DNA from: Chondrosia reniformis
Taxonomy: Eukaryota; Porifera; Demospongiae; Chondrillida; Chondrillidae
Length of the DNA stretch: 64,000 nucleotides
NCBI GenBank assembly: GCA_947172415.1
Contig: OX359194.1
Location: 5,642,001-5,706,000 of the forward strand
Direction: 5' to 3'
Shown piece after piece: positions 1-21,187 of the stretch. The notes beneath the pieces were generated by a model, which was not told the DNA's origin, ran no database searches, and saw nothing but the letters and a program-made list of their open reading frames with translations. Position 1 is the stretch's first letter; each line of letters starts with the position of its first letter. The position numbers and the translations under genes are program-made.

Positions 1-759
1 CTTACGGGGAAATCCATGAGTGATAGAAATACCATCTACATAGTAAGAGTTGATATTATCTGATACTTCTTCATGAAAGCCATCCATACTAAAATACTGA
101 TATCCAACTGCCTGTCCACAGACACGTTTGTATCTCTTTCCATATGTACTGAATACAGCAGACACACATCCTGAACTAGGTCTGGCACAGAATTTCCTAG
201 GAGAGGTAATCTGTCTATAAGGAGTGGGGCACTGTGCACTGGGTTGAGTCATGTTTATGTGGGCCACTCTCATCCATCCTCCCTTGACTCCACAATGCCA
301 TGTCTCCATATCACAATAGACCTGCCTTGTGTGCTGGACTCCATTGAGCTGAGCATACAACCAGTAGTATCCAGTGGCTGCTCCTGGATCACTTTGATAA
401 ATGTCCAGACAGCAGTTGGCAGGATTACCAGATGACCTACCAATTGTTCCAGGAGAAGTAGTAGATTGATGTTGTTGTTGAGTGTAGTTTTGTAGTGTGT
501 CAGTAAGAATCTGTTTGAGTTGTTGTGTAATGTCATTCTTGAATTCCTTTGCTTGAGAATAGGAGATGTGGCCTTTTCCAGGGGGCCCAGGCATTCCATC
601 CCTCCCATCTCTTCCAGGAGGTCCTTGTAGAAGAGTGCAAGTGTTCTCCTGATCGGTAGACTGTCTCTTTGCTCTTGAGAGAGGAAGGTCATTAATCAAG
701 GCAATGCTGCAGTGGATCATCAGTGTGAGGACAGTCAATGCTGCCATCTTGTAGGTCAT
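1..759 (-). CDS. Collagen/fibrinogen-like secreted protein, array copy 1 (C-terminus beyond window)
   Basis: This is the N-terminal two thirds of the array protein; the reading frame is open from the ATG at 759 to the window edge, so only the C-terminus is missing. The visible V1 patch reads FSMDGFHEEVSDNINS, which matches copy 4 and no other copy. Copies 1 and 4 also share a codon change just before the stretch where the other copies read GCA ACC. The start chosen is the methionine of the NM(T/I)YKM motif present in all copies; further upstream the frame has only non-ATG codons or the leader. Identity as a family member is certain from sequence; function is not known. Confidence 0.88.
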   Translation of the reverse strand, partial: MTYKMAALTVLTLMIHCSIALINDLPLSRAKRQSTDQENTCTLLQGPPGRDGRDGMPGPPGKGHISYSQAKEFKNDITQQLKQILTDTLQNYTQQQHQSTTSPGTIGRSSGNPANCCLDIYQSDPGAATGYYWLYAQLNGVQHTRQVYCDMETWHCGVKGGWMRVAHINMTQPSAQCPTPYRQITSPRKFCARPSSGCVSAVFSTYGKRYKRVCGQAVGYQYFSMDGFHEEVSDNINSYYVDGISITHGFPRK

Positions 760-813
760 ATTCATCAAAGTAACAACTGGAGCATTTGTGGTGTTTTGGT
801 GAAGGAGGGCCAC

Positions 814-820
814 TTTTATA
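814..820 (-). promoter_or_regulatory. TATA box of array copy 1
   Basis: TATAAAA on the minus strand lies 55 bp upstream of the chosen ATG. The same box at the same distance occurs before the other array genes, in otherwise leader-like DNA. Confidence 0.7.
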
Positions 821-3033
821 AGAAATGTCAAATCTATGGTCACATGTACTGTATGAGGTTTAATAGTTTAGAGTCACTAATTATGAAGTGACAATCTTCT
901 AACCAAATCAGTGCCGGATTAATAAATATCATTACACTTACTGTAATAAGGACTATATAATTCACTAATGCCATTTTTAACAATGAATTCTTGAATGTTT
1001 AGTTTGCCAGTGCTACTATATAGTAGTATTTTCAATTAAGTGAAGTACCTTTTTCCTGCAATAGTATAAAGTATCCAAGTAGCAAGTAGTATTCTTGTGT
1101 GTAAGGTGTATGAGTGAAATCTTTTCTACTATTGATATCTGCTTAAGGTATCTTCCTCTATTAAAGACAGCTACATTAGCAAACCTAATCTTCCTGTTAG
1201 ATAGTATATAGTGTAGGTACAGAGGAATTTATAGATTGGTTTATTCGGTGTACTTAGAAACTAATAATACCAGTCTATCATTTTATCAATGGATTGTGTA
1301 AAGAGAGCTATATTAAATAACTTTTACATTCCTTAATGCCAAATGTGCTTATTGAAGCATGTCATAAGGATAGACTTAGTGGTGTGCATGTCTGTAGTAC
1401 ACATAAAACTATTCACTGTATCATCTTCTAGGTAAGGTCCTATAGATGAACTGCGTATATACCTGTGCTCGTTTCCAATTGATTATGTATTTTAACACCT
1501 CTCATCATATGACTGTGAGTTTACACTACTCACTCCTGGAGGAGTACAATCACTTGAAATGGGTGGAACAAGGCGACTTGTTAGGAAACTGGAACCTCCT
1601 TTTATAGTAGCTACTCAAAAATATCCTTATGCCAGGAAGTCTATCATAACACAGTGGCAGGTAATTGGTTGCCTATACCATCTATCCCAGACTAAATTCA
1701 CAGCAATTGCTTCTTTTTTCATAGTGATGAGTGAGAATAATTGTCTTTAGTCTCACTGCGCTATTTACAGTAAAAAGGGAAACCCATTTAGAGTAATGGT
1801 CTATACCTGACCAAATATGTACTTTCAGCACAAAGATTATATATTCTTTTCAGGTCAATGGTTTCAGCTAGTGACGTTCATAGTTTTTCAAGACCTGATC
1901 ATGTCTCCATGAGTAGCGCCCATCATTTAGATCTATAGGAGTAATGGTTGAATATATGCCTTAGTGTTAACTGAACCACACACATATGTAGGTGAGAGAT
2001 GGTTCAGTTCTTAACTTCCATCATTTTATTATATATTATATGATGGGTGTTGGCAAACATTTTTGGGTAGCTCAAAGTACAAAAAAATAGTTGAACACTT
2101 GGAAGGCAAGTTTTCAGACACTTTCAGAGGCCATTTTCATTCTCTACTATTGTTATTTCTTTTAATTATGGACTAAGAGGCTTTCCAGTTTAGAGTCCCA
2201 GTGTTCTTTTGTCTTTGGTTTTGAATGAATAGTATCTTTTAAAATGTCATGTTTATTGAAAGTTGGACGGAAAACACTATATTGTAGTATAATCTATTCA
2301 ATTGTTGGAAGTACCCTAATCCTGTAATATTGTGAAATCTCCAAGTTACCCAAGACAATTTAAACATTCATACAAGGATTGGTTTTTGGTTTTAAGTATG
2401 TGGAACTCATAAAACAAAATGATAGCACAGTCTTAAACTTCAACAATGGATTGTGTAAAGAGAGCTATGTAAGTATATTAAATCATTTCATCTGTATCCC
2501 TTACTTCTGCTATGCTTAATGTAGCATCTCCTGGGTAGATTCTGTAATGTAACACACTTTAAACTGTTCATCATGGTCACCTAGAAAAGGGCCATACAGG
2601 TTACTTATAATTCTTTCAAAATGATTATGGTAACCTGATTGATTGATTAATTCAACTTAAAAGGTACGTATAGTGATTCATTTTTGAATCTGAATCTAAA
2701 CATACATATGTTCCTTCTCTAGATCATTGGCAGTCTATATCTTAAAGATTGTTGGTTGTATTATTTAGACCACTTTAAAATCAACGTCAAGAGTAACAGG
2801 CTGTTTACCTTATTTTTTGTGTAAATATAGACTGCATTTAATTCTCAGTCTGTACCTGTATCTCTCATCAAAAATAATCTTTTAATATATTTTATTCTTA
2901 AATCTGCTGATCATGAATATGTAATGTTCTCTTTTGTCACATACGTACAATTAATGCAATGTGTAAATGGAGTACATTTTAATTTTACCAATAAAGTAGG
3001 GAGGTTTTATTTTGGAATTTGGTAGTTTAGTGC
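821..3033. other. Intergenic spacer between array copies 1 and 2
   Basis: No supported gene. The first part (about 840-1,780) is homologous to the spacers upstream of copies 2 and 4, sharing blocks such as the stretch around 1,290 that reappears near 4,690 and 10,560. The part from about 2,230 to 3,020 is homologous to 8,310-8,920. It is rich in TACGTA-type palindromes. The 3' end of copy 2 has an AATAAA signal on the minus strand near 3,006. Confidence 0.7.
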
Positions 3034-4146
3034 TTAATTAATGTAGATTTCAAGAATCTCCAAGTAGATATCTTCATTATTCACTGGAGCACTGTTTGTA
3101 CAAAGTCTAACTTCAATGTCTTCATCAGTTTCCATTGGAAGTTCTCTACAAAACCAAGGCATTCCGGACTGACTACAGCAGTTGTTACCAGCTCCACAAC
3201 CTTCTCCATCCCAAAGTGGATCATTAGTGTAGACAATATTCTCAAAAACTCCGGTATTCCCAGACTCACAGTAATAGTGATCTCTTACAAATGACGGAGG
3301 AGATGGTCCAGGGTATTTAGCACAGGGACAGTTGCAACAATCATAATTATGATCATCAGAGAGTCCAACTGCATAAGTCCAAATGTGCTTACGGGGAGAT
3401 CCATGAGTGATTGAGATACCATCTACATAGTAAGAGTTGATATCACCTGTTACTCCTGCTTGAAAGCCATCCATACTGTAATACTGATATCCAACTGCCT
3501 GTCCACAGACACGTTTGTATCTCTTTCCATACGTACTGAATACAGCAGACACACATCCTGAACTAGGTCTGGCACAGAATTTCCTAGGAGAGGTAATCTG
3601 TCTATAAGGAGTGGGGCACTGTGCACTGGGTTGAGTCATGTTTATGTGGGCAACCCTCATCCATCCTCCCTTGACTCCACAATGCCATGTCTCCATATCA
3701 CAATAGACCTGCCTTGTGTGCTGGACTCCATTGAGCTGAGCATACAACCAGTAGTATCCAGTGGCTGCTCCTGGATCACTTTGATAAATGTCCAGACAGC
3801 AGTTGGCAGGATTACCAGATGACCTACCAATTGTTCCAGGAGAAGTAGTAGATTGATGTTGTTGTTGAGTGTAGTTTTGTAGTGTTTCAGTAAGAATCTG
3901 TTTGAATTGTTGTGTAATGTCATTCTTGAATTCCTTTGCTTGAGAATAGGAGATGTGGCCTGTTCCGGGAGGCCCAGGCATTCCATCCCTCCCATCTCTT
4001 CCAGGAGGTCCTTGTAGAAGAGTGCAAGTGTTCTCCTGATCAGTAGACTGTCTCTTTGCTCTTGAGAGAGGAAGGTCGTTGATCAAGGCAATGCTGCAGT
4101 GGATCATCAGTGTGAGGACAGTCAATGCTGGCATCTTGTAAGTCAT
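3034..4146 (-). CDS. Collagen/fibrinogen-like secreted protein, array copy 2 (complete)
   Basis: An intact single-exon gene of 370 residues and the reference copy for the array. Residues 6-22 are a hydrophobic signal peptide; RAKR at 29-32 is a furin-type site; residues 46-61 are five to six G-X-Y triplets; residues 66-98 are a polar helical linker that could trimerise; from about 115 a Cys-rich domain opens with CCLDIYQ and VYCDMET, as fibrinogen-like domains do. The later part (PWFCRELP, RLC, EDIYLEILEIYI) is a conserved pattern I recall from unnamed sponge and cnidarian proteins, without an established function. Variable patches are V1 223-235, V2 264-273, V3 297-308 and V4 350-357. V2 here is DCCNCPCA with two extra cysteines. 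A non-ATG extension upstream covers the leader and TATA box and is not coding. Confidence 0.9.
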   Translation of the reverse strand: MTYKMPALTVLTLMIHCSIALINDLPLSRAKRQSTDQENTCTLLQGPPGRDGRDGMPGPPGTGHISYSQAKEFKNDITQQFKQILTETLQNYTQQQHQSTTSPGTIGRSSGNPANCCLDIYQSDPGAATGYYWLYAQLNGVQHTRQVYCDMETWHCGVKGGWMRVAHINMTQPSAQCPTPYRQITSPRKFCARPSSGCVSAVFSTYGKRYKRVCGQAVGYQYYSMDGFQAGVTGDINSYYVDGISITHGSPRKHIWTYAVGLSDDHNYDCCNCPCAKYPGPSPPSFVRDHYYCESGNTGVFENIVYTNDPLWDGEGCGAGNNCCSQSGMPWFCRELPMETDEDIEVRLCTNSAPVNNEDIYLEILEIYIN

Positions 4147-4200
4147 ATTCATCAAAATAACAACTGGAGCATTTGTGGTATTTTGGTGAAGGAGGGCCAC

Positions 4201-4207
4201 TTTTATA
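4201..4207 (-). promoter_or_regulatory. TATA box of array copy 2
   Basis: TATAAAA on the minus strand, 55 bp before the ATG at 4,146. Its presence explains why the sequence upstream of the start is as conserved as the coding part. Confidence 0.7.
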
Positions 4208-6776
4208 AGAAATGTCAAATCTATGGTCACATGTACTGTATGAGGTTCATAAGTTTAGAGTCACTAATTATGAAGTGATAATCCTCTAACCAAATCAGTG
4301 CCGGATTAATAAATATCATTATACTTACTGTAATAAGGACTACATAATTCACTAATGCCATTTTAACAATGAAATCTTGAATATTTAGTTTGCCAGTGCT
4401 ACTATATAGTAGTATTTTAAATTAAGGGAAATACCTTATTCCTGCAATAGTATAAAGTATCCAAGTAGCAAGTAGTATTCTTGTGTTTTTAAAGTTGTAT
4501 GAGTGAAGTCTTTTCTACTATTAATGTCTGCTTAAGGTATCTTTCTCTATTAAAGAGAGCTACATCTGAAAACCTAGTCTTACTGTTAAACAGTACGTAA
4601 AGTGTAGGTACAGAGGAATTTATAGATTTATTTGGTGTACGCAGGGTAAGTCATTACAACTAATAATACCAGTCTATCATTTTAACAATAGATTGTGTAA
4701 AGAGAGCTATATTAAATAACTTTTACATTCCTTAATGCCAAATGTGCTTATTGAAGCATGTCATAAGGATAGACTTAGAGGCGTACATGTTTGTAGTACA
4801 CATAAAACTATTCACTGTATCATCTTCTATGTAAGGTCCTATAGATGAACTACGTATATACCAACGCTGATTATGATAATTGTATTGCAACACACCTCTC
4901 ATCATATGACTGCGAGGAGTACAAGGGCTTGAAATGGGTGGAACAAGGTGACTTGTGAAGTTATGGAAACTGGAACCTCCTTTTATAGTAGCTACTCCAA
5001 AATGTCCTTATGCCAGGAAGTCTATCATAACACAGTGGCAGGTAATTGATTACCCGAACTAAATTTACAGCAATTGCTTGTTTTTTCATAGTGATGAGTA
5101 AGAATAGTTATCTTTAGTCTCACTGTAATATTTGCAGTAAAAAGGGGAACCCCATTTAGAGTCATGGGTTATACAGTACCTGACCAAATACGTATGTACT
5201 TTCAGCATAAAGATTACCATATGGCGCCAAGCTTTCGCGAAATAGTCTTCGCAGATGGAGAGAGTAATCGTATTAATAGGTGTGATATTGAGGTGTCATT
5301 CCAACACTGAAGGATTTTGAAGGAGCAAATCGTGTTAAAGACGTGTAGTCTAGAAATGACAAGGGAAAGCTTCAGCATGGAGGCAATGGTGCACGGCTAT
5401 CATGTGTACAAAGACGTCGTTGCTCTCAAGGAGGAACTCCTGGAGGAGTACAATGGGTGGAACAAGGCGACTTGTTAATATATGGAAACTGGAATCTCCT
5501 TTTATAGTAGCTACTCAAAAATGTCATAGTGTAGTGGCAGGTAATTGTTTACCCATTCCATCAGCAATTGCTTCTTTTTTCATAGTGTTGAGTGAGAATA
5601 ATTATCTTTAGTCTCACTGGACTATTTACAGTAAGAGGTAAGCTCATTTAGAGTAATGGGCTATACCTGACCAAATATGTACGTACTTTCGGTATAGAGA
5701 TTATAGTCTTTTCAGGTCAATGGTTTGAGTTAGTGACTTTCCAAGACTTAATCAGGTCTTCATGAGTAAAACCCATCATTTAGAGCAATAGGAGCAACGG
5801 TTGAATATTATGCTCTGAATATACTTTGCTGTGTTAACTGAACCACACACACACACATAGGTGACAGGAGGGTCAGTTCTTAACTTTCATCATTTCAATA
5901 TGATGGGTATGGGTAAACAATCTAGCGAAGCTCAAAGTACAAAAGATGGCTGACCACTTGGAAGTTTTCAGAGGCCAGTTTATTTATTTCTTCAAGTTTA
6001 CCTTGGACTTAGAGACTTTTCAGTTTAGAGTCCCAGTGTTCTTTTAACTTTTACTGAATCTTGCTTTATTTTTTACTGCCTTTAAGTCTACTTTTAGCTG
6101 GTTCCTGTCATTATCATTAGAGGGCAGTAGTCCAAGTTGATATCAAAGAAAGGGAGAATTGCACAGGGTATAAATAAAATGATTATAATCTAATGAACTC
6201 TTCAGATTAGTGTCTACATACACAGTACTACTTATGTTCTGTACGTATATGAGCTTTGTGTTCTTTGGTAGAAGGGCAGGATTTGTGTGAGGGATTGCTG
6301 TCCACAATTTTTGTTATTCCTAAACTACATATAGTACGTACTCATTTATTCTGTGTATTGTATTGTCATCTACGTATTGGCCATGAAAATGAAAATATAC
6401 TAAGGTTCTAGATTGAACATCTTACACTGTCTTTTGTCTTACTCATTGTTGTCACATTTAGAGGTACTGTATGCATATATGGTGCATTAGTAATGTAATT
6501 ACATATATATATGTACATACAATACTAGGGTAATTCATTGAGTTATCAAACCTTTAATATGTATACTACGTATATCTGTTCAAGTACACAGTAGAACAGA
6601 AAGGTAGTTTAGCCAACTGGCCAACAATTGAATGTAATGATTAAGCATACGTACTTAAAGTAATTCAGTTTATTGATTTAATTAACATATTGTCAAAATG
6701 TCAAATTTTAAGGATTAGTATACGTATATTTGAAATTGACCAAAAATTTGAATGTTTTGCTTGTTATTCATTGATC
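4208..6776. other. Intergenic spacer between array copies 2 and 3
   Basis: About 2.6 kb. The part from 4,240 to 5,110 repeats the spacer upstream of copy 1. The part from about 5,480 to 6,780 repeats 10,850-12,190, upstream of copy 5's end. Apart from the small reading frame at 5,356-5,478, no coding signal was seen. TACGTA palindromes are frequent. Confidence 0.7.
5356..5478 (+). pseudogene. Short YHVYKD-type reading frame, probable transposon-associated fragment
   Basis: A 40-residue frame starting ATGACAAGG and containing AMVHGYHVYKDVVALKEE. This motif resembles a short segment I recall from uncharacterised, probably transposon-linked proteins in sponges and cnidarians. It lies in about 240 bp (5,220-5,460) of less AT-rich DNA that is absent from the matching place in the other spacers, so it looks like an insertion. 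It is probably a fragment rather than a gene. Confidence 0.35.
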
Positions 6777-7883
6777 TTAATAAATGTATATTTCAAGAGT
6801 CTCCAGGTAGATATCTTCATTAGTAATTCCCCCACTTGCACAAAGTCTAACTTCAATGTCATCATCCGTTTCCATTGGAAGTTCTCTACAAAACCAAGGC
6901 ATTCCAGACTGACTACAGCAGTTGTTACCAGTTCCACATCCTTCTCCATCCCAAAGTGGATCATTAGTGTAAACAGTATTGCTATAACCTCCAGTAGCCC
7001 CAGACTCACAGTAATAGTGATCTCTTACAAATGATGGAGGAGATGGTCCAGGATGTTTAGCACAGGGACAGTTGTAATCTTGATAGTCATAATCATCAGA
7101 GAGTCCAACTGCATAAGTCCAAATGTGCTTACGGGGAAATCCATGAGTGATGGAAATACCTTCTACATAGTAAGAGTTGATATCATCCATTCCTAATTGA
7201 AAAGCATCCATACTGTAGTATTGATATCCAACTGCCTGTCCACAGACACGTTTGTATCTCTTTCCATATGTACTGAATACAGCAGACACACATCCTGAAC
7301 TAGGTCTGGCACAGAATTTCCTAGGAGAGGTAATCTGTCTATAAGGAGTGGGGCACTGTGCACTGGGTTGAGTCATGTTTATGTGGGCAACCCTCATCCA
7401 TCCTCCCTTGACTCCACAATGCCATGTCTCCATATCACAATAGACCTGCCTTGTGTGCTGGACTCCATTGAGCTGAGCATACAACCAGTAGTATCCAGTG
7501 GCTGCTCCTGGATCACTTTGATAAATGTCCAGACAGCAGTTGGCAGGATTACCAGATGACCTACCAATTGTTCCAGGAGAAGTAGTAGATTGATGTTTTT
7601 CTTGAGTGTAGTTTTGTAGTGTGTCAGTAAGAATCTGTTTGAGTTGTTGTGTAATGTCATTCTTGAGTTCCTTTGCTTGAGAATAGGAGATGTGGCCTGT
7701 TCCGGGAGGCCCAGGCATTCCATCCCTCCCATCTCTTCCAGGAGGTCCTTGTAGGAGAGTGCAAGTGTTCCCCTGATCAGTTGACTGTCTCTTTGCTCTT
7801 GAGAGAGGAAGGTCGTTGATCAAGGCAATGCTGCAGTGGATCATCAGTGTGAGGACAGTCGATGCTGCCATCTTGTAGATCAT
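6777..7883 (-). CDS. Collagen/fibrinogen-like secreted protein, array copy 3
   Basis: Complete, single exon, 368 residues. Distinctive points: V1 is the shortest in the array (YSMDAFQLGMDDINS); V2 is DDYDYQDYNCPCA without the extra cysteines; V3 (GATGGYSNTVYTND) is identical to copy 4; V4 is ASGGITNEDI. The linker has QEKHQ in place of QQQHQ. The signal peptide has an Ala-to-Ser change (MAASTV). The C-terminus is YIY, as in copy 5, whose 3' flank is also homologous, so the end of this gene travels with its flank. Confidence 0.9.
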   Translation of the reverse strand: MIYKMAASTVLTLMIHCSIALINDLPLSRAKRQSTDQGNTCTLLQGPPGRDGRDGMPGPPGTGHISYSQAKELKNDITQQLKQILTDTLQNYTQEKHQSTTSPGTIGRSSGNPANCCLDIYQSDPGAATGYYWLYAQLNGVQHTRQVYCDMETWHCGVKGGWMRVAHINMTQPSAQCPTPYRQITSPRKFCARPSSGCVSAVFSTYGKRYKRVCGQAVGYQYYSMDAFQLGMDDINSYYVEGISITHGFPRKHIWTYAVGLSDDYDYQDYNCPCAKHPGPSPPSFVRDHYYCESGATGGYSNTVYTNDPLWDGEGCGTGNNCCSQSGMPWFCRELPMETDDDIEVRLCASGGITNEDIYLETLEIYIY

Positions 7884-7937
7884 ATTGATCAAAGTAACAA
7901 CTGGAGCATTTGTGTTGTTTTGGTGAAGGAAGGCCAT

Positions 7938-7944
7938 TTTTATA
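7938..7944 (-). promoter_or_regulatory. TATA box of array copy 3
   Basis: TATAAAAA on the minus strand, 55 bp before the ATG at 7,883. Confidence 0.68.
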
Positions 7945-8930
7945 AGAAATGTCAAATCTATATTTGGTCACGTGTTTACATTATGTATAGTTTAGATCTA
8001 TAGTTGTTAATTTGGAAGTGACAATAACTTCTAACCAAATCAATACCATTTTCAATTACCTATATAATATAGCATTCTTTTAATGTATTACTTAGTGAGA
8101 ACTTTAAGAAATCTGTATAGTTGTACATAATTACTGACTGTATAAACTGTTTGTTTTAAATTTTTGCAAGGTAAAAAGTAATGATGATATAGTAATTATC
8201 TGTGTGGATGTCTATTAATCATTTATGTACATGTTCTGATGTTCTGAGCTTGATTTTACTTCTTTATATAGTTATCTTTTCTTTCTGAATGGGCCATTCA
8301 CCAATTGGATTTTAAAATGTCTTTTTTATTGAAAGTTTGGATGGAAAGCATATAATTTTAGTAGTATAATATTCAATTGAGGGATGTACCCTAATCCTGT
8401 AATATTATCAAATTTCTAAGAAGTGCAAGACACTTGTGAATAAATTCTTTTGGTTTAAGTAGAAGTAAACACTAGCTAGCCGTCTAATAATTAAACAATG
8501 CATTGTGTAAATAGAGCTTTCTTGTATCCCTTATTTATGTTCTACTTTAGCTTGTATCCTGGGAAGGTTCTGAGATATAATAACGTACATTGAATTTTAC
8601 AGTCATTCATTTTTTGAATCTGAATCTGAACATGCAATTTAATTTCCTTCTCTAGATTTACAAGTAAAAACACTGAGTTTGGACATGATTATTGTCTGCT
8701 TTTGTTATAATAATCTGCATTAGAAATCCTCAGTCTGTAACTGTATCTCCCCTTAAAAATATTATTTGAATGTATATTGTTCTTAAGTCTACTGATCATG
8801 AATAATGTCACATACGTACTACATGATAACTGATGTAATATAAGGATATGTGTAAATTAATTTTTAGTTAAACCAATAGACCAATAAAGTAGGGAGGTTT
8901 TATTTTGGAATTCGGTAGTCTAGTGTTTAG
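7945..8930. other. Intergenic spacer between array copies 3 and 4
   Basis: About 1 kb, the shortest spacer. From 8,310 it is a diverged copy of 2,230-3,020, including the region around the poly(A) signal of the gene to its right. No gene seen. Confidence 0.7.
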
Positions 8931-10040
8931 TTAATGTATGTAGATTTCAAGCATCTCCAAGTAGATATCTTCGTCATTCAACGGTCCACTGCTCCCACAC
9001 AATCTAACTTCAATGTCATCATCAGTTTCCATTGGAAGTTCTCTACAAAACCAAGGCATTCCAGACTGACTACAGCAGCTGTTATCAACTCCACATCCTT
9101 CTCCATCCCAAAGTGGATCATTAGTGTAAACAGTATTGCTATAACCTCCAGTAGCCCCAGACTCACAGTAATAGTGATCTCTTACAAATGATGGAGGAGA
9201 TGGTCCAGGGTATTTAGCACAGGGACAGTTGCAACAATCATTATGATCATCAGAGAGTCCAACTGCATAAGTCCAAAGATGCTTCCGGGGAAATCCATGA
9301 GTGATAGAAATACCATCTACATAGTAAGAGTTGATATTATCTGATACTTCTTCATGAAAGCCATCCATACTAAAATACTGATATCCAACTGCCTGTCCAC
9401 ACACACGTTTGTATCTCTTTCCATACGTACTGAATACAGCAGACACACATCCTGAACTAGGTCTGGCACAGAATTTCCTAGGAGAGGTAATCTGTCTATA
9501 AGGAGTGGGACACTGTGCACTGGGTTGAGTCATGTTTATGTGGGCCACTCTCATCCATCCTCCCTTGACTCCACAATGCCATGTCTCCATATCACAATAG
9601 ACCTGCCTTGTGTGCTGGGCTCCATTGAGCTGAGCATACAACCAGTAGTATCCAGTGGCTGCTCCTGGATCACTTTGATAAATGTCCAGACAGCAGTTGG
9701 CAGGATTACCAGATGACCTACCAATTGTTCCAGGAGAGGTAGTAGATTGATGTTGTTGTTGAGTGTAGTTTTGTAGTGTGTCAGTAAGAATCTGTTTGAG
9801 TTGTTGTGTAATGTCATTCTTGAATTCCTTTGCTTGAGAATAGGAGATGTGGCCTGTTCCGGGAGGCCCAGGCATTCCATCCCTCCCATCTCTTCCAGGA
9901 GGTCCTTGTAGAAGAGTGCAAGTGTTCTCCTGATCAGTAGACTGTCTCTTTGCTCTTGAGAGAGGAAGGTCGTTGATCAAGGCAATGCTGCAGTGGATCA
10001 TCAGTGTGAGGACAGTCAATGCTGCCATCTTGTAGATCAT
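8931..10040 (-). CDS. Collagen/fibrinogen-like secreted protein, array copy 4
   Basis: Complete, single exon, 369 residues. V1 (FHEEVSDNINS) matches copy 1, V2 (HNDCCNCPCA) has the double-cysteine form seen in copy 2, V3 matches copy 3, and V4 (GSSGPLNDEDI) is unique. It also differs in HLWTYAVG and GVDNSCC where the other complete copies have HIWTYA and G(A/T)GNNCC. No single relative explains all four patches, which makes this the clearest mosaic in the array. Confidence 0.9.
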   Translation of the reverse strand: MIYKMAALTVLTLMIHCSIALINDLPLSRAKRQSTDQENTCTLLQGPPGRDGRDGMPGPPGTGHISYSQAKEFKNDITQQLKQILTDTLQNYTQQQHQSTTSPGTIGRSSGNPANCCLDIYQSDPGAATGYYWLYAQLNGAQHTRQVYCDMETWHCGVKGGWMRVAHINMTQPSAQCPTPYRQITSPRKFCARPSSGCVSAVFSTYGKRYKRVCGQAVGYQYFSMDGFHEEVSDNINSYYVDGISITHGFPRKHLWTYAVGLSDDHNDCCNCPCAKYPGPSPPSFVRDHYYCESGATGGYSNTVYTNDPLWDGEGCGVDNSCCSQSGMPWFCRELPMETDDDIEVRLCGSSGPLNDEDIYLEMLEIYIH

Positions 10041-10094
10041 ATTGATCAAAGTAACAACTGGAGCAACTGTGGTGTTTTGGTGAAGGAGGGCCTC

Positions 10095-10101
10095 TTTTAT
10101 A
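10095..10101 (-). promoter_or_regulatory. TATA box of array copy 4
   Basis: TATAAAA on the minus strand, 55 bp before the ATG at 10,040. Confidence 0.68.
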
Positions 10102-12192: not shown

Positions 12193-13311
12193 TTAATAAA
12201 TGTATATTTCAAGAATCTCCAAGTAGATATCTTCATTAGTAATTCCCTCATTTGCACACAATCTAACTTCAATGTCATCATCCGTTTCCATTGGAAGTTC
12301 TCTACAAAACCAAGGCATTCCAGACTGACTACAGCAGTTATTACCAGCTCCACAACCTTCTCCATCCCAAAGTGGATCAGTAATGAAAACATAGTTTTTA
12401 TCATTGTGAACTCCAGTATTCCCAGACTCACAGTAATAGTGATCTCTTACAAATGATGGAGGAGCTGGTCCAGGGTATTTAGCACAGGGACAGTTATTGT
12501 TACCTCCATAGTTATGATCATCAGAGAGTCCAACTGCATAAGTCCAAATGTGCTTACGGGGAGATCCATGAGTGATGGAAATACCATCCACATAGTAAGA
12601 GTTGATATCACCTGTTACTCCTGCTTGAAAGGCATTCATACTGTAATACTGATATCCAACTGCCTGTCCACAGACACGTTTGTATCTCTTTCCATACGTA
12701 CTGAATACAGCAGACACACATCCTGAACTAGGTCTGGCACAGAATTTCCTAGGAGAGGTAATCTGTCTATAAGGAGTGGGGCACTGTGCACTGGGTTGAG
12801 TCATGTTTATGTGGGCAACCCTCATCCATCCTCCCTTGACTCCACAATGCCATGTCTCCATATCACAATAGACCTGCCTTGTGTGCTGGACTCCATTGAG
12901 CTGAGCATACAACCAGTAGTATCCAGTGGCTGCTCCTGGATCACTTTGATAAATGTCCAGACAGCAGTTGGCAGGATTACCAGATGACCTACCAATTGTT
13001 CCAGGAGAAGTAGTAGATTGATGTTGTTGTTGAGTGTAGTTTTGTAGTGTGTCAGTAAGAAGCTGTTTGAGTTGTTGTGTAATGTCATTCTTGAATTCCT
13101 TTGCTTGAGAATAGGAGATGTGGCCTGTTCCGGGAGGCCCAGGCATTCCATCCCTCCCATCTCTTCCAGGAGGTCCTTGTAGAAGAGTGCAAGTGTTCTC
13201 TTGATCAGTAGACTGTCTCTTTGCTCTTGAGAGAGGAAGGTCGTTGATCAAGGCAATGCTGCAGTGGATCATCAGTGTGAGGACAGTCAATGCTGCCATC
13301 TTGTAAGTCAT
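12193..13311 (-). CDS. Collagen/fibrinogen-like secreted protein, array copy 5
   Basis: Complete, single exon, 372 residues. V1 (YSMNAFQAGVTGDINS) is identical to copy 7. V2 is NYGGNNNCPCA. V3 is the most divergent in the set (GVHNDKNYVFITD, replacing the usual VYTND). V4 is ANEGITNEDI. One Ser-to-Ala change gives GPAPPSF in an otherwise invariant stretch. The collagen segment and linker match copy 6. Confidence 0.9.
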   Translation of the reverse strand: MTYKMAALTVLTLMIHCSIALINDLPLSRAKRQSTDQENTCTLLQGPPGRDGRDGMPGPPGTGHISYSQAKEFKNDITQQLKQLLTDTLQNYTQQQHQSTTSPGTIGRSSGNPANCCLDIYQSDPGAATGYYWLYAQLNGVQHTRQVYCDMETWHCGVKGGWMRVAHINMTQPSAQCPTPYRQITSPRKFCARPSSGCVSAVFSTYGKRYKRVCGQAVGYQYYSMNAFQAGVTGDINSYYVDGISITHGSPRKHIWTYAVGLSDDHNYGGNNNCPCAKYPGPAPPSFVRDHYYCESGNTGVHNDKNYVFITDPLWDGEGCGAGNNCCSQSGMPWFCRELPMETDDDIEVRLCANEGITNEDIYLEILEIYIY

Positions 13312-13365
13312 ATTCATCAAAGTAACAACTGGAGCAATTGTGGTGCTTTGGTGAAGGAGGGCCAC

Positions 13366-13372
13366 TTTTATA
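13366..13372 (-). promoter_or_regulatory. TATA box of array copy 5
   Basis: TATAAAA on the minus strand, 55 bp before the ATG at 13,311. Confidence 0.68.
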
Positions 13373-14757
13373 AGAAATGTCAAATCTATGGTCACATGTA
13401 CTGTATGAGGTTTATAAGTCTTTAATTAGGAAGTGACAATATATACCTCCTAACTCGATAAATACCATATTTCATGCTCCAAATAAATTGTAAATGTCAT
13501 TTACTTACTTAGTATGGACTTTAAAATTCACTAATGCCATGTTTTCTAAAGGTTTAATTTACTAGGTTTATTGTATAGTGGTTTTTAAATATGTCTTTAA
13601 TGTTATAATCCCTAAGTTGCAAGTAGTGTTCTTGTGTTTTTAAGGTGATGCCTTTACCTTGTTATTTACTGAATGTAGATACCTTTGACTCTTAATGTCA
13701 ATTGTATGCTCAATATACTGTACATATATACGTACTGTACCTCAAACCTAGGATTACCTGAAGACAGTAGGCACAGAGGAATCAATTATACGTATAGCAA
13801 AATTACAATGAATGATACTAGTGAACTATATTCCATAGTTCTTTATGATGGATTTTGTGGGCAGACTCAGACATGTAGTGCAACTCTACTCTATACATAG
13901 GTAAAGATTCTAATAATAAGATCTACTGGTGATCATTTTCAGCTAAGTGTGATAATGTATTGTGAAAAAAGCTGATATGTGTTCATATATCTCATTATGT
14001 GACTGTGGTACTATGTTGACTGTGGTACTGTGCCAACAATGGATTGTGTAAAGAAAGCTATATATTAAATCACTTGTAATGCCACTTACAAGTACACAGC
14101 TTAATTGAAGCATGTCCTAGGCAGACACAGAGATGTGGTATATAGCTGCATTAGCAGACAGTTATGCATTGTCTTATAATTCTGTATTTGTAGTAATGTA
14201 TTAAATGTAATATTTGATCTTATTGTGTAAGTATTCTTGCATCAGTTAACTTATGATTTCCTCTTACTGCTCTTGTCTGTTTATATGTCCTGATACACCA
14301 ATCGATCAGGAGAAACCTTCGATCCTATTTTAATGGATTGTCTTGTTTATTTCCACTTCTTGGGCAGAGAATAATTTGTTTGTATGTATGTAATTACTAT
14401 TAAGAGGAGGACACAGAACATGCTCTTTCATTATTTCTCGGTGACAGAGCACTTTTTGCTTAAACCAGTCATCCTTAATTGAATTCCCAATCAATTCTTT
14501 AATATTTTGTTGTACCAATACATGTGATTAAGGTATTCAAAAATATTCATAGTTAAGGAGCTTTAGAACTGTGAGCTATACCGGACTTAATATATACGTA
14601 TGTGGATATGAGGCACTAATGTTCACATACAAGGGTTACAAGTTGTTAACTTGTACGTATGTGTATGTACACAGCTACAGATTGAATTACTAGACTAAAT
14701 TTCCCCCTTGCATGTATCTATTTATTAAATTACCTTTGAGCATCTGATTCAATAAGG
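13373..14757. other. Intergenic spacer between array copies 5 and 6, proximal part
   Basis: No supported gene. This stretch is homologous to 16,800-17,890 upstream of copy 6, so copies 5 and 6 arose by duplication of a unit that included the upstream spacer. The 17-bp minisatellite present in the second spacer is represented here by little more than a single unit near 14,000. Confidence 0.65.
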
Positions 14758-15330
14758 CTACTTGGATGCATAAATTAAACGTTTAGACCCACTGGTCTTC
14801 ATCAGTAATGAATGAGGAGATATACAATAGAAGAGGGGTGGCATGAGATGAGTGATGTTTTTTTGCTCTGAAGATATTAAATTGTAATAAATATGATAGA
14901 TATGTAAGAGTGTTAAGGTGTTAATGAAGGTGTCATTCCAAATGTGGTCTACATGCCTTCCTGGATCCATGTTTAGACAAGGGGTACTTTGTATTATTAA
15001 AACTTCTTTAATTTTCCTCCTTGTCTTGTTACCTTCTCCTTGAACTACTTTGGTATCTTCCCATGCGATATCATGCATCATCTCCTGTACATGGACTGCT
15101 AAAGAGTTGTTCTGGTTCATTCTTTTGAAAGCTTTCTTGTGCTCATTCCTTTGTTCAGTAATGTTCTTGCAAGTCTCTCCTTAGTAGGTGTCTTGATCGT
15201 GGTTAGAAGAGATCTCAGAGTGTTGGTGGCTTTGTTCACTACTATAACATTGAGAGGTTGACATGTTCTTTGCAGGTTCTTACTTAATCCTTTCACCTAT
15301 GGAATGCAGAGGATGTACTCGTGCTCTCTT
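14758..15330 (-). mobile_element. Penelope-like retroelement remnant with GIY-YIG endonuclease region
   Basis: The minus strand encodes, with stops and shifts, the typical end of a Penelope-like element: VKGLSKNLQRTC, then NTLRSLLTTIKTP, then GETCKNI, then NSLAVHVQEMMHDIAWED and a C-terminal TRRKIKEVLIIQSTP followed by HIWNDTF. These correspond to the connector and GIY-YIG endonuclease of Penelope elements. In-frame stops (for example before VKGLSK) show it is dead. A damaged hammerhead motif lies at 14,778-14,808 on the same strand. Confidence 0.7.
14778..14808 (-). ncRNA. Degraded hammerhead ribozyme of a Penelope-like element
   Basis: The minus strand reads CTGATGA, a helix II with arms AGACC and GGGTC around AGT, then TAAAC where GAAAC is required. 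Loss of the invariant G makes activity unlikely. Its place in the Penelope remnant fits the known association of small hammerheads with these elements. Confidence 0.55.
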
Positions 15331-15593
15331 CTTGTATGGTCTTGTTCATTGTTGATGAAGGCATGCAGATTGAAACATTCAATTTCTGTATGCACGTAGT
15401 GTTGCTCAGAGATAATCAATTTTCTACTCTTATCATTTCATATTAAATTATATAATGGTATTACGCTCTCATAAGCTTATGATATGAATATTTGTTACAT
15501 GTTTGTAATGTTTTGTAAATGCAGTGTAATTTTATTTGACAAAATTACAATGAAAATGTTATGTAATTCTATCACCATTTAATGGTCTAGTGT
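15331..15593. other. Spacer downstream of array copy 6
   Basis: AT-rich, no gene. Homologous to about 19,580-19,820, downstream of the orphan gene end before copy 7. Confidence 0.6.
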
Positions 15594-16712
15594 TTAGTTA
15601 ATGTATATTTCAAGAATCTCCAGGTAGATATCTTCATTAGTAATTCTCTCATTTGCACACAATCTAACTTCAATGTCATCATCAGTTTCCATTGGAAGTT
15701 CTCTACAAAACCAAGGCATTCCAGACTGGCTACAGCAGTTGTTACCAGCTCCACAGCCTTCTCCGTCCCAAAGTGGATCATTAGTGTAGACAATATTCTC
15801 ATGAACTCCAGTATTCCCAGACTCACAGTAATAGTGATCTCTTACAAATGATGGAGGAGATGGTCCAGGATATTTAGCACAGGGACAGTTATTGGTACCT
15901 CCATAGTTATAATCATCAGAGAGTCCAACTGCATAAGTCCAAATGTGCTTACGGGGAAATCCATGAGTGATGGAAATACCTTCTACATAGTGAGAGTTGA
16001 TATCAACCGTTACTCCTCTAGCTACTTGAAAGGCATCCATATTGCTATACTGATATCCAACTGCCTGTCCACAGACACGTTTGTATCTCTTTCCATATGT
16101 ACTGAATACAGCAGACACACATCCTGAACTAGGTCTGGCACAGAATTTCCTAGGAGAGGTAATCTGTCTATAAGGAGTGGGGCACTGTGCACTGGGTTGA
16201 GTCATGTTTATGTGGGCAACCCTCATCCATCCTCCCTTGACTCCACAATGCCATGTCTCCATATCACAATAGACCTGCCTTGTGTGCTGGACTCCATTGA
16301 GCTGAGCATACAACCAGTAGTATCCAGTGGCTGCTCCTGGATCACTTTGATAAATGTCCAGACAGCAGTTGGCAGGATTACCAGATGACCTACCAATTGT
16401 TCCAGGAGAAGTAGTAGATTGATGTTGTTGTTGAGTGTAGTTTTGTAGTGTGTCAGTAAGAAGCTGTTTGAGTTGTTGTGTAATGTCATTCTTGAATTCC
16501 TTTGCTTGAGAATAGGAGATGTGGCCTGTTCCGGGAGGCCCAGGCATTCCATCCCTCCCATCTCTTCCAGGAGGTCCTTGTAGAAGAGTGCAAGTGTTCT
16601 CCTGATCAGTAGACTGTCTCTTTGCTCTTGAGAGAGGAAGGTCATTGATCAAGGCAATGCTGCAGTGGATCATCAGTGTGAGGACAGTCAATGCTGCCAT
16701 CTTGTAGATCAT
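15594..16712 (-). CDS. Collagen/fibrinogen-like secreted protein, array copy 6
   Basis: Complete, single exon, 372 residues. It has the longest V1 (SNMDAFQVARGVTVDINS) and a Tyr-to-His change in the flanking SHYVEG. V2 is NYGGTNNCPCA, one residue different from copy 5. V3 (GVHENIVYTND) is half copy 5 and half copy 2. V4 is ANERITNEDI. It shares NM(I)YKM and the VEG/GFPRK block with copy 3, showing block exchange outside the patches too. Confidence 0.9.
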   Translation of the reverse strand: MIYKMAALTVLTLMIHCSIALINDLPLSRAKRQSTDQENTCTLLQGPPGRDGRDGMPGPPGTGHISYSQAKEFKNDITQQLKQLLTDTLQNYTQQQHQSTTSPGTIGRSSGNPANCCLDIYQSDPGAATGYYWLYAQLNGVQHTRQVYCDMETWHCGVKGGWMRVAHINMTQPSAQCPTPYRQITSPRKFCARPSSGCVSAVFSTYGKRYKRVCGQAVGYQYSNMDAFQVARGVTVDINSHYVEGISITHGFPRKHIWTYAVGLSDDYNYGGTNNCPCAKYPGPSPPSFVRDHYYCESGNTGVHENIVYTNDPLWDGEGCGAGNNCCSQSGMPWFCRELPMETDDDIEVRLCANERITNEDIYLEILEIYIN

Positions 16713-16766
16713 ATTGATCAAAGTAACAACTGGAGCATCTGTGGTGTTTTGGTGAAGGAGGGCCAC

Positions 16767-16773
16767 TTTTATA
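16767..16773 (-). promoter_or_regulatory. TATA box of array copy 6
   Basis: TATAAAA on the minus strand, 55 bp before the ATG at 16,712. Confidence 0.68.
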
Positions 16774-17389
16774 AGAAATGTCAAATCTATGGTCACATGT
16801 ACTGTATGAGGTTTATAAGTCTTTAATTAGGAAGTGACAATATATACCTCCTAACTCGATAAATACCATATTTCATGCTCCAAATATATTGTAAATGTCA
16901 TTTACTTACTTAGAATGGACTTTAAAATTCACTAATGTCATGTTTTCTAAAGGTTTAGATTACCAGGTCTATTGTATAGTGGTTTTTAAATAAGGGAAAC
17001 ATTTCTTTAATGTTATAGTCTCTAAGTTGCAAGTAGTGTACTTGTGTTTTTTAAGGTGTACGTATGTCTTTACCTTGTTATTTATGTAGATATGAATGTA
17101 GATACCTTTGACTCTTAATGAGAATTGTATGCTCAATATATGTATATACATACCTCTAACCTAGGATTACAGTAGGCATATAGGAATAGAGAAATCGATT
17201 GTCTATATACGTACGTATGTAGCAAAATAAGAATGAATGGTACAAAGTTAGCTAAATTCCTTAATTCTTAATGATGGACTTCATGGGCAGACTCAAATAT
17301 GTAGTGCAACTCTACACCATAGGTAAAGGTCCTAATGATATGACCTACTGGTGATCATTTTCAGCTAAGTGTGATATATATCTCATTAT
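16774..17389. other. Intergenic spacer upstream of array copy 6
   Basis: Homologous to 13,400-13,970; no gene seen. Confidence 0.6.
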
Positions 17390-17568
17390 GTGACTGTGGT
17401 TCTATGTTGACTGTGGTTCTATGTTGACTGTGGTTCTATGTTGACGGTGGTTCTATGTTGACTGTGGTTCTATGTTGACTGTGGTTCTATGTTGACTTTG
17501 GTTCTATGTTGACTGTGGTTCTATGTTGACTGTGGTTCTATGTTGACTGTGGTTCTTTGCTGACTTTG
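17390..17568. repeat. 17-bp minisatellite, about 10 copies
   Basis: Unit TGACTGTGGTTCTATGT repeated with few changes (for example one GACGG and two GACTT variants). The duplicated spacer at about 13,990-14,030 has about one unit, so the expansion followed the spacer duplication. Confidence 0.9.
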
Positions 17569-17861
17569 GGATTCTGCTTCCCACACTTGAGAGAACAATG
17601 ACTGTCTAACAATTCAACAATGGATTGTGTAAAGAAAGCTATATTAAATCAATTGTAATGCCACTTACAAGTACACATGGCTAATGAAGCATGTCCTAGG
17701 CAGATACAGAGATGTGGTATACACAGTTCTCTAGCTGCATTTTATTTAGCAGATGGTTATGCATTATATTAAATTTCTGTTTATGTAGTAATCTATTAAA
17801 TGTAATATTTGATCTTATTGTGTAAGTGGTTTTTCATCGGTTAACTTAGGACTTCCTCTTA

Positions 17862-19560
17862 CTGCTTTGGTACCTTCCTATGCAATGTCATGCATGGTAT
17901 TAACCAGTCTCTAGACAACGAGAGCACCCCCCAGGAATGGAGACAAGCAGGTCTGCTACCTCCCTACAAGAAGGGTGACAGGAACTGTTGTGCCAACTGC
18001 AGAGGGATCTCGTTTATGTCCATGGTGGGGAAGCTCTATAACAGAGTGCTACTAAATCAGATAAGGGGAGACGTCGAACCACTTTTACGTTACAACCAGA
18101 ATGGTTTCCATCCACAGTGCAGCATGTGCTATCCCTCCACCAAATCCTGGACCAGTGTAGAGTGAGGCAGAACACTAATTGTGTTGCAGTTTTTGTGGAC
18201 TTTGACTCTTAATGAGAATTGTATACTCAATATATGTGTATACGTATGTACCTCAAGCCTAGGATTATTTGAAGACAGTAAAATGTAGAAGTGGAATCCT
18301 GCAAGGCATTTGACAGTGTCTCAAGGTCCAGGATGGAATTGATACTATCAAATTATGGCATTCCTTGTAAGATTGTCAAGACCATTATGTCCATATACTC
18401 ATGAACTTCTGCCACAGTGATCACACCTGATGGGCATAGTGATCCATTTGACGTCACAACCAGAGTGCTACGTACATGCAAGGAGACACATTATTTCCTT
18501 TCCTGTTTATCTATGAATAGTGGTTGACTACATCATGAGACTGACTGTACCTGATCCTAGTGTCGGTTTCAGGTGGAGGAGACATGAAGACTCATGGAAG
18601 CCTACTGCATACATCACGGACCTTGACTACACCGGCTTCGCTCTCCTGGCCAACTCAATTGGAAACACTCAGCAATTGCTTACTACCCTTGAGATTTGAG
18701 ACTATATAATGCCAGAATGGTGGGCCTCAAGATCAAGGCAGAATTCATGCTAGCAGGAGATTTCCTTGTACAACCTGTACTCACAACATCTAGTGGCCCA
18801 ATTAAACAGGTGGATGATTTCAGATACCTAGGATGCTGGCTCAAGGACTCAATGAAATTTTTTTTAACCTGGTGGGCACAAGCGTTCGATGCTGCGAATC
18901 AGATGTGGTATATCTGGAAGTCAGACTTCTCCAAGAGCCTAAAGATCAGGCTCTTCTGTGCCACCATTGAGAGTGTTCTTCTGCATGGCAGTGAGACCTG
19001 GTGTACATATGACCCAGTGGATGGAAAAGAGGCTCAACAAAGTGTACACTCGTCTGCTATGGAAAGCTCTCAATATAAACTGGAAAATGAAAGTCCCCAA
19101 TGTCCAATTGTACAGAGCGATGCAAAGGCCATCCATACTGGTCACAATGTGGAGGTTGCAACTTGCTGACCACTGTTTCAGAGCATGTGGCACACGACAC
19201 AAACCAGCCAGTGATCTGGCCTTATGGCAGAGCCAAGAGAGGTTCCAGGTAGGACAAGCCAACCGCTTGACCTACATTCGGATGTTCTGACATGACAGTG
19301 TATTTGTACTTATTTTGTTTTTTAATTAATGCATGGTCTACTGGACATGGACTGCTAAAGAGAGTTCTGGTCCATTCTTCTGAAAGCTTTCTTGTGTAAT
19401 GTTATTGCAGGTCTCTCCTTAGAAGGTGATTGTGGTTAGAAGAGATCTCAAAGTGTTGGTGGCTTTGTTCACTACTTTAACATTGAGGGGTTGACATGTT
19501 CTTTGCAGATTCTTGCTTAATCCTTTCACCTATGGAATGCAGAGGATGTACTCATGCTCT
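17862..19560 (-). mobile_element. Second Penelope-like remnant, split by a LINE
   Basis: Sequence at 17,866-17,898 and again from 19,338 to about 19,560 matches the Penelope remnant at 15,050-15,310 (for example the blocks around GGACTGCTAAAGAG and TTAGAAGAGATCTCA). The two halves are separated by the LINE at 17,899-19,329. The hammerhead end found in the first remnant is deleted here. Confidence 0.65.
17899..19329 (+). mobile_element. 5'-truncated non-LTR retrotransposon (LINE), dead
   Basis: Translated pieces match LINE reverse transcriptase: PQEWRQAGLLPPYKKGD and a following RGISFMSMVGKLYNRVLLNQI at 17,930-18,080, GFHPQC after that, a KAFDSVS remnant near 18,310, and the later DDFRYLGCWLKDS with LKIRLFCATIESVLLHGSETW at 18,810-19,000. 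Frames are broken. An 8-bp target-site duplication TGCATGGT flanks it (17,891-17,898 and 19,330-19,337), inside the Penelope remnant. Confidence 0.78.
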
Positions 19561-19819
19561 CTTATTGTATGATCTTGTTCATTGCTGATGAAGACATGCA
19601 GATTGAAACATTCAATTTCTGTATGCACGTAGTGTTGCTCAGAGATAATCAATTTTCTACTATGAACACATGCAACTAAAAGCCTCTTACCATTTCATAT
19701 TAAATTTCGCGCTCTTATAATATGAGCATGTTTACATGTTTGTAATGTTTGTAAATGCAGTGCAATTTTAATTGATAAAATTATAAATGTAATTGTTTCA
19801 CCATTTAATGGCCTAGTGC
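19561..19819. other. Spacer between the LINE/Penelope nest and the orphan gene end
   Basis: AT-rich; homologous to 15,330-15,590. No gene. Confidence 0.55.
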
Positions 19820-19867
19820 TTAGTTAATGTAGATTTTAAGAATCTCCAAGTAGATATCTTCAGTATT
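19820..19867 (-). pseudogene. Orphan 3' end of an eighth array gene
   Basis: On the minus strand this encodes a variant of the array C-terminus (EDIYLEILKIYIN then stop) with nothing upstream in frame. It is joined to 3'-flank-like DNA (19,875-20,000) and then to intact copy 7. It marks an old breakpoint, probably from unequal crossing-over. Confidence 0.75.
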
Positions 19868-20010
19868 TACTACCTCAAGTTAGTCTGCTGATCATAAATA
19901 TGTAATGTTCTCTTTGTCATATACAACTGATGCAATGTAAATATGTGTACATGTTGATCCAAAAAAGTAGGGAGGTTTTATTTTGGAATTTGTTAGTCTA
20001 GATCTAGTGC

Positions 20011-21126
20011 TTAGTTAATGTAGATTTCAAGAATCTCCAGGTAGATATCTTCATTATTAAATGGTCCTTCATTTGCACAAAGTCTAACTTCAATTTCATC
20101 ATCAGTTTCCATTGGAAGTTCTCTACAAAACCAAGGCATTCCAGACTGACTACAGCAGTTGTTACCAGCTCCACAACCTTCTCCATCCCAAAGTGGATCA
20201 TTAGTGTAAACAGTGTTACTGGGACCTCCAGTATTCCCAGACTCACAGTAATAGTGATCTCTTACAAATGATGGAGGAGATGGTCCAGGATGTACAGCAC
20301 AGGGACAGTTTTCATTTGGATCATAATTATGATCATCAGAATAGCCAATTGCATAAGTCCAAATGTGCTTACGGGGATATCCATGAGTGATTGAGATACC
20401 GTCTACATAGTAAGAGTTGATATCACCTGTTACTCCTGCTTGAAAGGCATTCATACTGTAATACTGATATCCAACTGCCTGTCCACAGACACGTTTGTAT
20501 CTCTTTCCATATGAACTGAATACAGCAGACACACATCCTGAACTAGGTCTGGCACAGAATTTCCTAGGAGAGGTAATCTGTCTATAAGGAGTGGGGCACT
20601 GTGCACTGGGTTGAGTCATGTTTATGTGGGCAACCCTCATCCATCCTCCCTTGACTCCACAATGCCATGTCTCCATATCACAATAGACCTGCCTTGTGTG
20701 CTGGACTCCATTGAGCTGAGCATACAACCAGTAGTATCCAGTGGCTGCTCCTGGATCACTTTGATAAATGTCCAGACAGCAGTTGGCAGGATTACCAGAT
20801 GACCTACCAATTGTTCCAGGAGAAGTAGTAGATTGATGTTGTTGTTGAGTGTAGTTTTGTAGAGTGTCAGTAAGAATCTGTTTGAGTTGTTGTGTAATGT
20901 CATTCTTGAATTCCTTTGCTTGAGAATAGGAGATGTGGCCTGTTCCGGGAGGCCCAGGCATTCCATCCCTCCCATCTCTTCCAGGAGGTCCTTGTAGAAG
21001 AGTGCAAGTGTTCTCCTGATCAGTAGACTGTCTCTTTGCTCTTGAGAGAGGAAGGTCATTGATCAAGGCAATGCTGCAGTGGATCATCAGTGTGAGGACA
21101 GTCAATGCTGCCATTTTGTAGGTCAT
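20011..21126 (-). CDS. Collagen/fibrinogen-like secreted protein, array copy 7
   Basis: Complete, single exon, 371 residues; the last gene of the array. V1 equals copy 5. V2 is NYDPNENCPCAVHPG, V3 is GGPSNTVYTND, V4 is ANEGPFNNEDI. Unlike all others it has GYPRK, AIGYSDD (others AVGLSDD) and SSYGKRY (others STYGKRY), so changes extend slightly into the constant parts. ECM29 exons begin 0.86 kb to its right on the other strand. Confidence 0.9.
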   Translation of the reverse strand: MTYKMAALTVLTLMIHCSIALINDLPLSRAKRQSTDQENTCTLLQGPPGRDGRDGMPGPPGTGHISYSQAKEFKNDITQQLKQILTDTLQNYTQQQHQSTTSPGTIGRSSGNPANCCLDIYQSDPGAATGYYWLYAQLNGVQHTRQVYCDMETWHCGVKGGWMRVAHINMTQPSAQCPTPYRQITSPRKFCARPSSGCVSAVFSSYGKRYKRVCGQAVGYQYYSMNAFQAGVTGDINSYYVDGISITHGYPRKHIWTYAIGYSDDHNYDPNENCPCAVHPGPSPPSFVRDHYYCESGNTGGPSNTVYTNDPLWDGEGCGAGNNCCSQSGMPWFCRELPMETDDEIEVRLCANEGPFNNEDIYLEILEIYIN

Positions 21127-21180: not shown

Positions 21181-21187
21181 TTTTATA
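21181..21187 (-). promoter_or_regulatory. TATA box of array copy 7
   Basis: TATAAAA on the minus strand, 55 bp before the ATG at 21,126. Confidence 0.68.

Follow-up and report, generated by a model that had tools for sequence, protein, structure and literature searches.

What purpose might a sponge have for a row of nearly identical genes for collagen-stalked proteins that differ from one another mainly in four short stretches? The question is raised by a window of 64,000 nucleotides (the whole stretch of DNA analyzed here) from the kidney sponge Chondrosia reniformis, C6:5642001-5706000 of assembly odChoReni1.1 (117,379,552 bases in 15 contigs), the genome that we searched. Within it lie seven copies of a gene array on chromosome 6 (the C6 array), which belongs to a large, clustered family with a homogenized stalk and first half of the C-terminal domain, four recurrent loops that change in length, and loop exchange by short conversion. 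We consider it reasonably probable that these genes encode secreted, collectin-like recognition proteins and form an inherited repertoire diversified by duplication and conversion.

The C6 array comprises nine copies with intact frames and one internally deleted copy, spread over 28 kb. A protein search of the genome placed the nine, which are 90–100% identical and all on the minus strand, at C6:5636121-5663210. Seven lie within the window, one of them cut at the window start, and two further complete copies adjoin it on the left, together with the deleted one. A preliminary description of the window had counted seven same-strand genes, six of them complete, and seven minus-strand open frames are indeed present in positions 1-21126: copy C (1..759, its 3′ end about 350 bases left of the window), copy D (3034..4146; 370 amino acids, coordinates including the stop codon), copy E (6777..7883; 368), copy F (8931..10040; 369), copy G (12193..13311; 372), copy H (15594..16712; 372) and copy I (20011..21126; 371). 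Each of the nine proteins, 368–372 amino acids in size, is encoded by one open frame, and in all nine copies a TATAAAA motif occupies positions -61 to -55 from an in-frame ATG (21181..21187, minus strand, in copy I). From this open frame and TATA box, the copies appear to be single-exon genes. The GTG and TTG starts in a program-made list of open reading frames were discarded as artefacts, the in-frame ATG following TATAAAA in every copy. The tenth copy (C6:5635161-5636118; protein match 5635161-5635580) has an internal deletion of about 650 bp, which fuses the promoter and signal region, in a different frame, to the part from the first variable patch to the stop. C-terminal-only pieces of the family were also listed in C9 and C13, and N-terminal-only pieces in C9.

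From its N to its C terminus, the copy I protein consists of a signal-like N terminus and a RAKR furin-like site (both read by eye), a cysteine, a collagen stalk of six G-X-Y triplets that begins at residue 46 and ends with GTG, a helix, and a C-terminal domain. The six-triplet stretch is common to all nine copies, and the alignment has one substitution after it in copy C. The structure model places the helix at residues 67-98 and a folded, C-propeptide-like domain at residues 105-371 (predicted local distance difference test, pLDDT, 94.6; predicted template modeling score, pTM, 0.92), with the four variable patches, V1–V4, all between strands. Sequence and model thus give the secreted order of collagen stalk, helix and C-terminal domain known from collectins and ficolins, the secretion signal being read by eye.

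The domain had been described as fibrinogen-like, but the protein does not look like a classical fibrinogen-related one. When three window copies were scanned against Pfam, neither Fibrinogen_C (PF00147) nor the Ig domain of snail fibrinogen-related proteins (FREPs) was matched at E ≤ 1, and the sole match at that threshold was to COLFI (PF01410), with scores of 24.6, 23.8 and 24.0 bits vs a cut-off of 26.2. In a COLFI search of the genome, copy F with its frame neighbors reached 26.5 bits, seven other C6 copies were listed below the cut-off, and copy B was unlisted. PF00147 was matched at E ≤ 0.1 in 4 of 125 family members (best 0.0046). Among the 50 matches listed in the structural comparison, the C-propeptide was the only one to cover the whole domain, at 10–14% identity, and an angiopoietin FReD and a fibrinogen chain occurred only as weak Foldseek matches. 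A profile built from the alignment gave weak matches to the fibrinogen beta chain and to intelectins (best E 1.5e-4 to 3.2e-4), none of them extending beyond the first part of the domain. Judged from sequence and model, the nearest relative of the domain would be the procollagen C-propeptide rather than classical fibrinogen. The long uninterrupted Gly-X-Y helix of fibrillar collagen was not found, copy I having six triplets. Two phage proteins in BFVD also match the domain model, one named fibrinogen C-terminal (74 columns, 30% identity) and the other fibrillar collagen NC1 (68 columns, 40%).

The variable patches of copy I are V1 (residues 222-236; 20419..20463), V2 (262-273; 20308..20343), V3 (298-310; 20197..20235) and V4 (351-359; 20050..20076), all on the minus strand. 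Together they make up 49 of its 371 residues, yet they hold 672 of the 1109 pairwise amino-acid differences among the copies and all 106 gap differences, every one of whole codons, in agreement with the clustering in four C-terminal patches noted previously. The patches had also been assigned to exposed loops: they fall on loops of a confident model and no buried-core placement was seen, a placement that comes from the model, not from computed solvent exposure. Other long loops (274-291 and 311-331) vary little in C6.

The family is spread over all 14 chromosomes. We counted at least 212 loci, of which 208 measure 400 bp or more; 165 of the 212 belong to 25 clusters with three or more members each. 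The total is a lower bound, because the four single-copy searches merged to obtain it scored the best candidates only, and broken copies and pieces are counted in it; C9, C3, C14 and other clusters enter this count and lie outside the alignments. Three further arrays, C7 (11 copies), C13 (15) and C5 (9), vary at the same four places as C6. Left out before counting were L013 (internal stop) and the partial L025, L028 and L032 of C7; L047 and L055 (internal stops) of C13; L056-L063 (other places or shorter frames), excluded from the codon sets; and the broken L073 and L078 of C5. Every analyzed copy has its own combination of V1–V4 (9/9 in C6, 11/11 in C7, 15/15 in C13 and 9/9 in C5). Among C6, C7 and C13, positional variability is correlated over residues 205-371 (rho 0.45–0.53) and, as positional entropy, over residues 160-371 (rho 0.38–0.44), and no circular shift reached any of the six rho values. 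The same four patches also vary in five protein sets (29 proteins) on database contigs, which had entropies of 0.92–1.13 in the patches vs 0.15–0.43 in the frame and rho values of 0.46–0.53 with C6, as high as which no circular shift came. No member of these sets exceeds 58% identity to any of 78 fetched loci, so the sets probably come from other sponges. The proteins are representatives of 90% clusters, which favors differences, not their position, and the database listings comprise the best 120 of 2000, the best 120 of 682 and the best 120 of 214 hits.

Other observations on the family concern its arrangement and stalks. The subfamily nearest to C6 forms two C7 arrays in opposite orientation, about 218 kb apart (C7:6417032-6447962, minus; 6665675-6712281, plus). 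In C13 L039-L054, the collagen and helix region is nearly identical across two subtypes, the next ~80–90 residues differ strongly, and the variable part is then common again, which by sequence adds another level of mosaic structure. By eye, the open frames of these genes seem to start at a splice site, so more than one exon is probable. At the C5 loci L037 and L069-L078, the collagen stalk that carries this domain is much longer; L037 has runs of 33 and 12 triplets.

How the C6 copies stay so alike is indicated by their surroundings. In a nine-unit alignment, identity by 50-base window was 0.82–1.00 in the coding region and dropped to about 0.4–0.6 in the flanks, and the homologous block ended at a median of 188 bp upstream of the ATG and 14 bp downstream of the stop (36 pairs). 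The flanks of most pairs are no longer alignable, although a few pairs have 1 to 2.3 kb in common. Over the first 205 codons, the proportion of differing synonymous sites (pS) was 0.043 and that of nonsynonymous sites (pN) 0.012 across the 36 pairs, in keeping with the near-identical first ~220 residues and few synonymous differences reported in the preliminary description; in the core of copy I (codons 46-210; 20497..20991, minus strand), 15-codon windows of the nine-copy alignment had pS of 0–0.10 and pN of 0–0.04. Since the flanks are unalignable though synonymous sites differ by only 4%, the copies have been homogenized, and the gradual upstream decay of identity fits conversion tracts. 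Homogenization by gene conversion, as proposed earlier, is thus upheld by the contrast between flanks and coding region and by the recombination test given below. The earlier picture of clustering in the patches needs a correction: synonymous divergence reaches 0.124 in the frame of the C-terminal part, 0.334 in the patches and 0.28–0.31 in the final two 15-codon windows, and the best single breakpoint lies at codon 220, so more than the patches changes at codons ~210–220. It appears that a conversion gradient runs from the near-invariant first part into the variable last third.

Conversion had further been thought to spare the loops, but it also transfers them between copies. A test of the pairwise homoplasy index (PHI) type, written for this analysis, gave p ≤ 0.001, the smallest attainable value, in C6, C7 and C13. 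Between the 3′ parts of copies C and F there are 19 differing sites, 18 of which fall in columns 761–842, which hold V2. Over the last nine codons, the V2 of copy C equals that of copy E, with differences at the first and third printed codons, and the V2 of copy F equals that of copy D minus one codon; by this alignment, a tract of ~80 bp exchanges V2 between copies C and F. Copies G and I have the same V1 and differ in their other patches. Correlations between patch distances reached p < 0.05 only for V1–V4 in C6 and V3–V4 in C5, and for no pair in C7. Pairs alike at every codon of one patch and differing by at least 40% in another numbered 5/36 in C6, 2/55 in C7, 8/105 in C13 and 1/36 in C5. 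Diversification by duplication and conversion is, on these alignments, well supported.

Copy sets were also compared with proteins on a second set of contigs, in listings that consist of cluster representatives. With a C13 query, each of the seven proteins listed on a 536,731-base contig had a 100% identical counterpart among the loci of this genome, and none of six listed on a 7,076,433-base contig was identical to any of the 25 fetched loci (L039-L063), the best matches being at 79–99.5%. The latter contig may well be of the same species, because its protein P0122 is 99.5% identical to L039. Patches on it are re-sorted: P0127 has the V2 and V3 of L048 behind the other type of first half, and P0173 has the V2 of L040. 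With a C5 query, the five proteins listed on contig 8,967,804 all had their match in the genome, one of them apart from a single difference and another over 410 of 450 residues; of six listed on contig 431,981, none matched any of the 11 C5 loci. An alternate haplotype of the C. reniformis specimen has been deposited (PMC12181767), so the simplest reading is that the two sets are two haplotypes of one sponge; possibly the second comes from another individual. In C13 and C5 the copy variation looked for thus exists, the comparison being between contig sets, apparently of one species, rather than between separate individuals.

Together, these observations suggest how the locus may work. The family of secreted proteins to which the C6 array belongs (secretion judged by eye) has at least 25 clusters, and the array is one of these. 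Its copies are old products of tandem duplication: gene conversion holds the promoter, the stalk and the first half of the domain almost identical, and short conversion tracts also transfer the four loop patches between copies. The stalk and helix of the secreted proteins probably form trimers and the four loops a varied binding face. We infer a recognition role for proteins of the C6 type, and the locus would then provide soluble recognition proteins as an inherited repertoire, most likely for microbes or symbionts.

Selection on the patches bears on the choice between this recognition repertoire and a structural function. In C6, the ratio of nonsynonymous to synonymous divergence (dN/dS) by counting was 0.26 in the first part, 0.22 in the frame and 0.66 in the patches (confidence interval of the ratio, 0.49–1.07); the patches gave 0.94 in C7 and 0.77 in C13. 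Maximum likelihood (ML) gave 0.51–0.56 in patches and 0.15–0.20 in the frame, on trees that assume no recombination. The ratio is therefore raised in the patches, and values well below 1 are neither clearly indicated nor excluded. In every one of the four arrays, synonymous divergence at codons for the same amino acid was higher in patches than in the frame (C6, 0.269 vs 0.113, p = 0.0025; C5, 0.178 vs 0.095, p = 0.049, by permutation), and in C13 synonymous divergence fell with distance from the patches (0.311, 0.190, 0.072). Because the patches are older at silent sites, these data favor diversity that is kept or imported over mere relaxation.

We regard as unlikely the alternative that these are extracellular matrix proteins, a structural short-chain collagen whose many copies give dosage and whose surface loops are unconstrained. 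Loops are variable in most protein families, and a matrix role would suit the patch dN/dS at or below 1, the collagen stalks (including the runs of 33 and 12 triplets in one C5 copy) and the nearest fold, that of the procollagen C-propeptide. Relaxed constraint, however, should not raise synonymous divergence in the patches, an excess that was significant in two of the four arrays; only some of the loops vary; and dosage needs neither the differing copy sets of two arrays nor a unique loop combination in each analyzed copy.

Several results weigh against the recognition repertoire. Patch dN/dS does not exceed 1 by counting (0.66–0.94, with upper limits of the pN/pS ratio at 1.07–1.49) or by ML, and in C7 the first part likewise has a high ratio (0.62 by counting, 0.74 by ML). 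The synonymous excess at same-amino-acid codons was not significant in C7 (0.201 vs 0.134, p = 0.11) or C13 (0.242 vs 0.173, p = 0.10), and with distance from the patches synonymous divergence showed no fall in C6 (0.133, 0.105, 0.126) and a partial one in C7 (0.181, 0.064, 0.094). The step at codon ~220 of C6, between N- and C-terminal parts, was marginal (circular-shift p = 0.06), and several patches are correlated in C13 (4/6 pairs at p < 0.05). The C7 array does not differ between contig sets, six listed database proteins being identical to genome copies and a further one 99.7% identical, and the second contig set may be the other haplotype of one sponge.

Allorecognition or self-marking, in which each individual would secrete its own loop combination to be read by a receptor at tissue contact, seems to us very improbable. 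It would account for the copy sets of two arrays that differ between the two contig sets and for mosaic variation that is old at silent sites; the family, however, occupies at least 25 clusters on many chromosomes, not one locus, no membrane anchor was seen by eye in the window's proteins, and C7 proteins are common to both contig sets. Least probable of all is that the patches are chain-selection codes separating paralogues, as variable C-propeptide stretches decide which procollagen chains trimerize, for although the fold match is to a procollagen C-propeptide trimer and the procollagen chain recognition sequence is likewise variable and discontinuous, in the petal region of the C-propeptide (PMC5353611), the stalk and helix, the expected drivers of assembly, are nearly identical in nine of nine copies, and four patches over about 140 residues with whole-codon length changes would suit an outer face better than an interface.

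Among known systems, the fibrillar procollagen C-propeptide differs from this family in its long helix (here six triplets), at 10–14% identity, and the sponge domain has four hypervariable loops. Collectins and ficolins are secreted, collagen-stalked lectins of vertebrates, with a cysteine before a short collagen stalk, a helix and a C-terminal recognition-type domain. The sponge proteins are alike in all of this layout, but their domain is neither C-type lectin nor fibrinogen in Pfam, and there are hundreds of copies rather than a few. Snail FREPs and other invertebrate fibrinogen-related proteins are likewise expanded, diversified and secreted, and the sponge family has a weak fibrinogen profile match; the three copies scanned differ in having no Ig domain or PF00147 match. 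The SpTransformer (185/333) protein of sea urchins is not known to be related to the sponge family. The sponge family resembles that system in its clusters, mosaic copies and differing copy sets in two of three arrays (the second set may be one sponge's other haplotype) and differs in that its diversity lies in four fixed loops of a folded domain; the sea urchin genes are clustered, with a mosaic second exon and allelic differences (PMC8634487). Sponge NLR and SRCR receptor expansions (PMC12909245, PMC10855680) are also large, with domains that differ from those of this family, and the excerpted text of PMC12909245 mentions no loop shuffling.

Elsewhere in the window, an open frame at 39669-40061 matches CARD below threshold (E 0.0017). 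Pieces of an amine oxidase gene lie at 46427-48970 and pieces of a nucleoporin gene, matching the Nup133 N-terminal-like and nucleoporin C models, at 53369-61971, both probably exon by exon, with a tRNA-Cys at 58093-58165. Four long tandem arrays occur at 29534-29982 (30-bp unit), 30634-31319 (34-bp), 42218-42973 (28-bp) and 62921-63420 (20-bp).

For the biology of sponges, the size of the family matters. The repertoire studies consulted here, PMC12909245 among them, count sponge immune genes by Pfam-type domains, and the scanned copies of this family are at or below the sole Pfam cut-off that sees it; its 212 or more loci are comparable to the 230 NACHT-domain genes of Dysidea avara (PMC12909245), and the C. 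reniformis assembly paper reports 17,340 annotated genes (PMC12181767). We think it quite unlikely that the repertoire is also combinatorial in the germline, with conversion keeping stalk and assembly parts interchangeable so that heterotrimers form across loci, and with the four loops shuffled as cassettes into a set of each haplotype's own; if true, this would be an anticipatory repertoire in an early-branching animal, without somatic recombination, on a procollagen C-propeptide fold. If the loops recognize microbes or kin, the family would open to direct test the old question of how animals that lack adaptive immunity distinguish many symbionts from strangers, with loops that are defined, loop-exchange pairs that occur naturally and a protein that is soluble.

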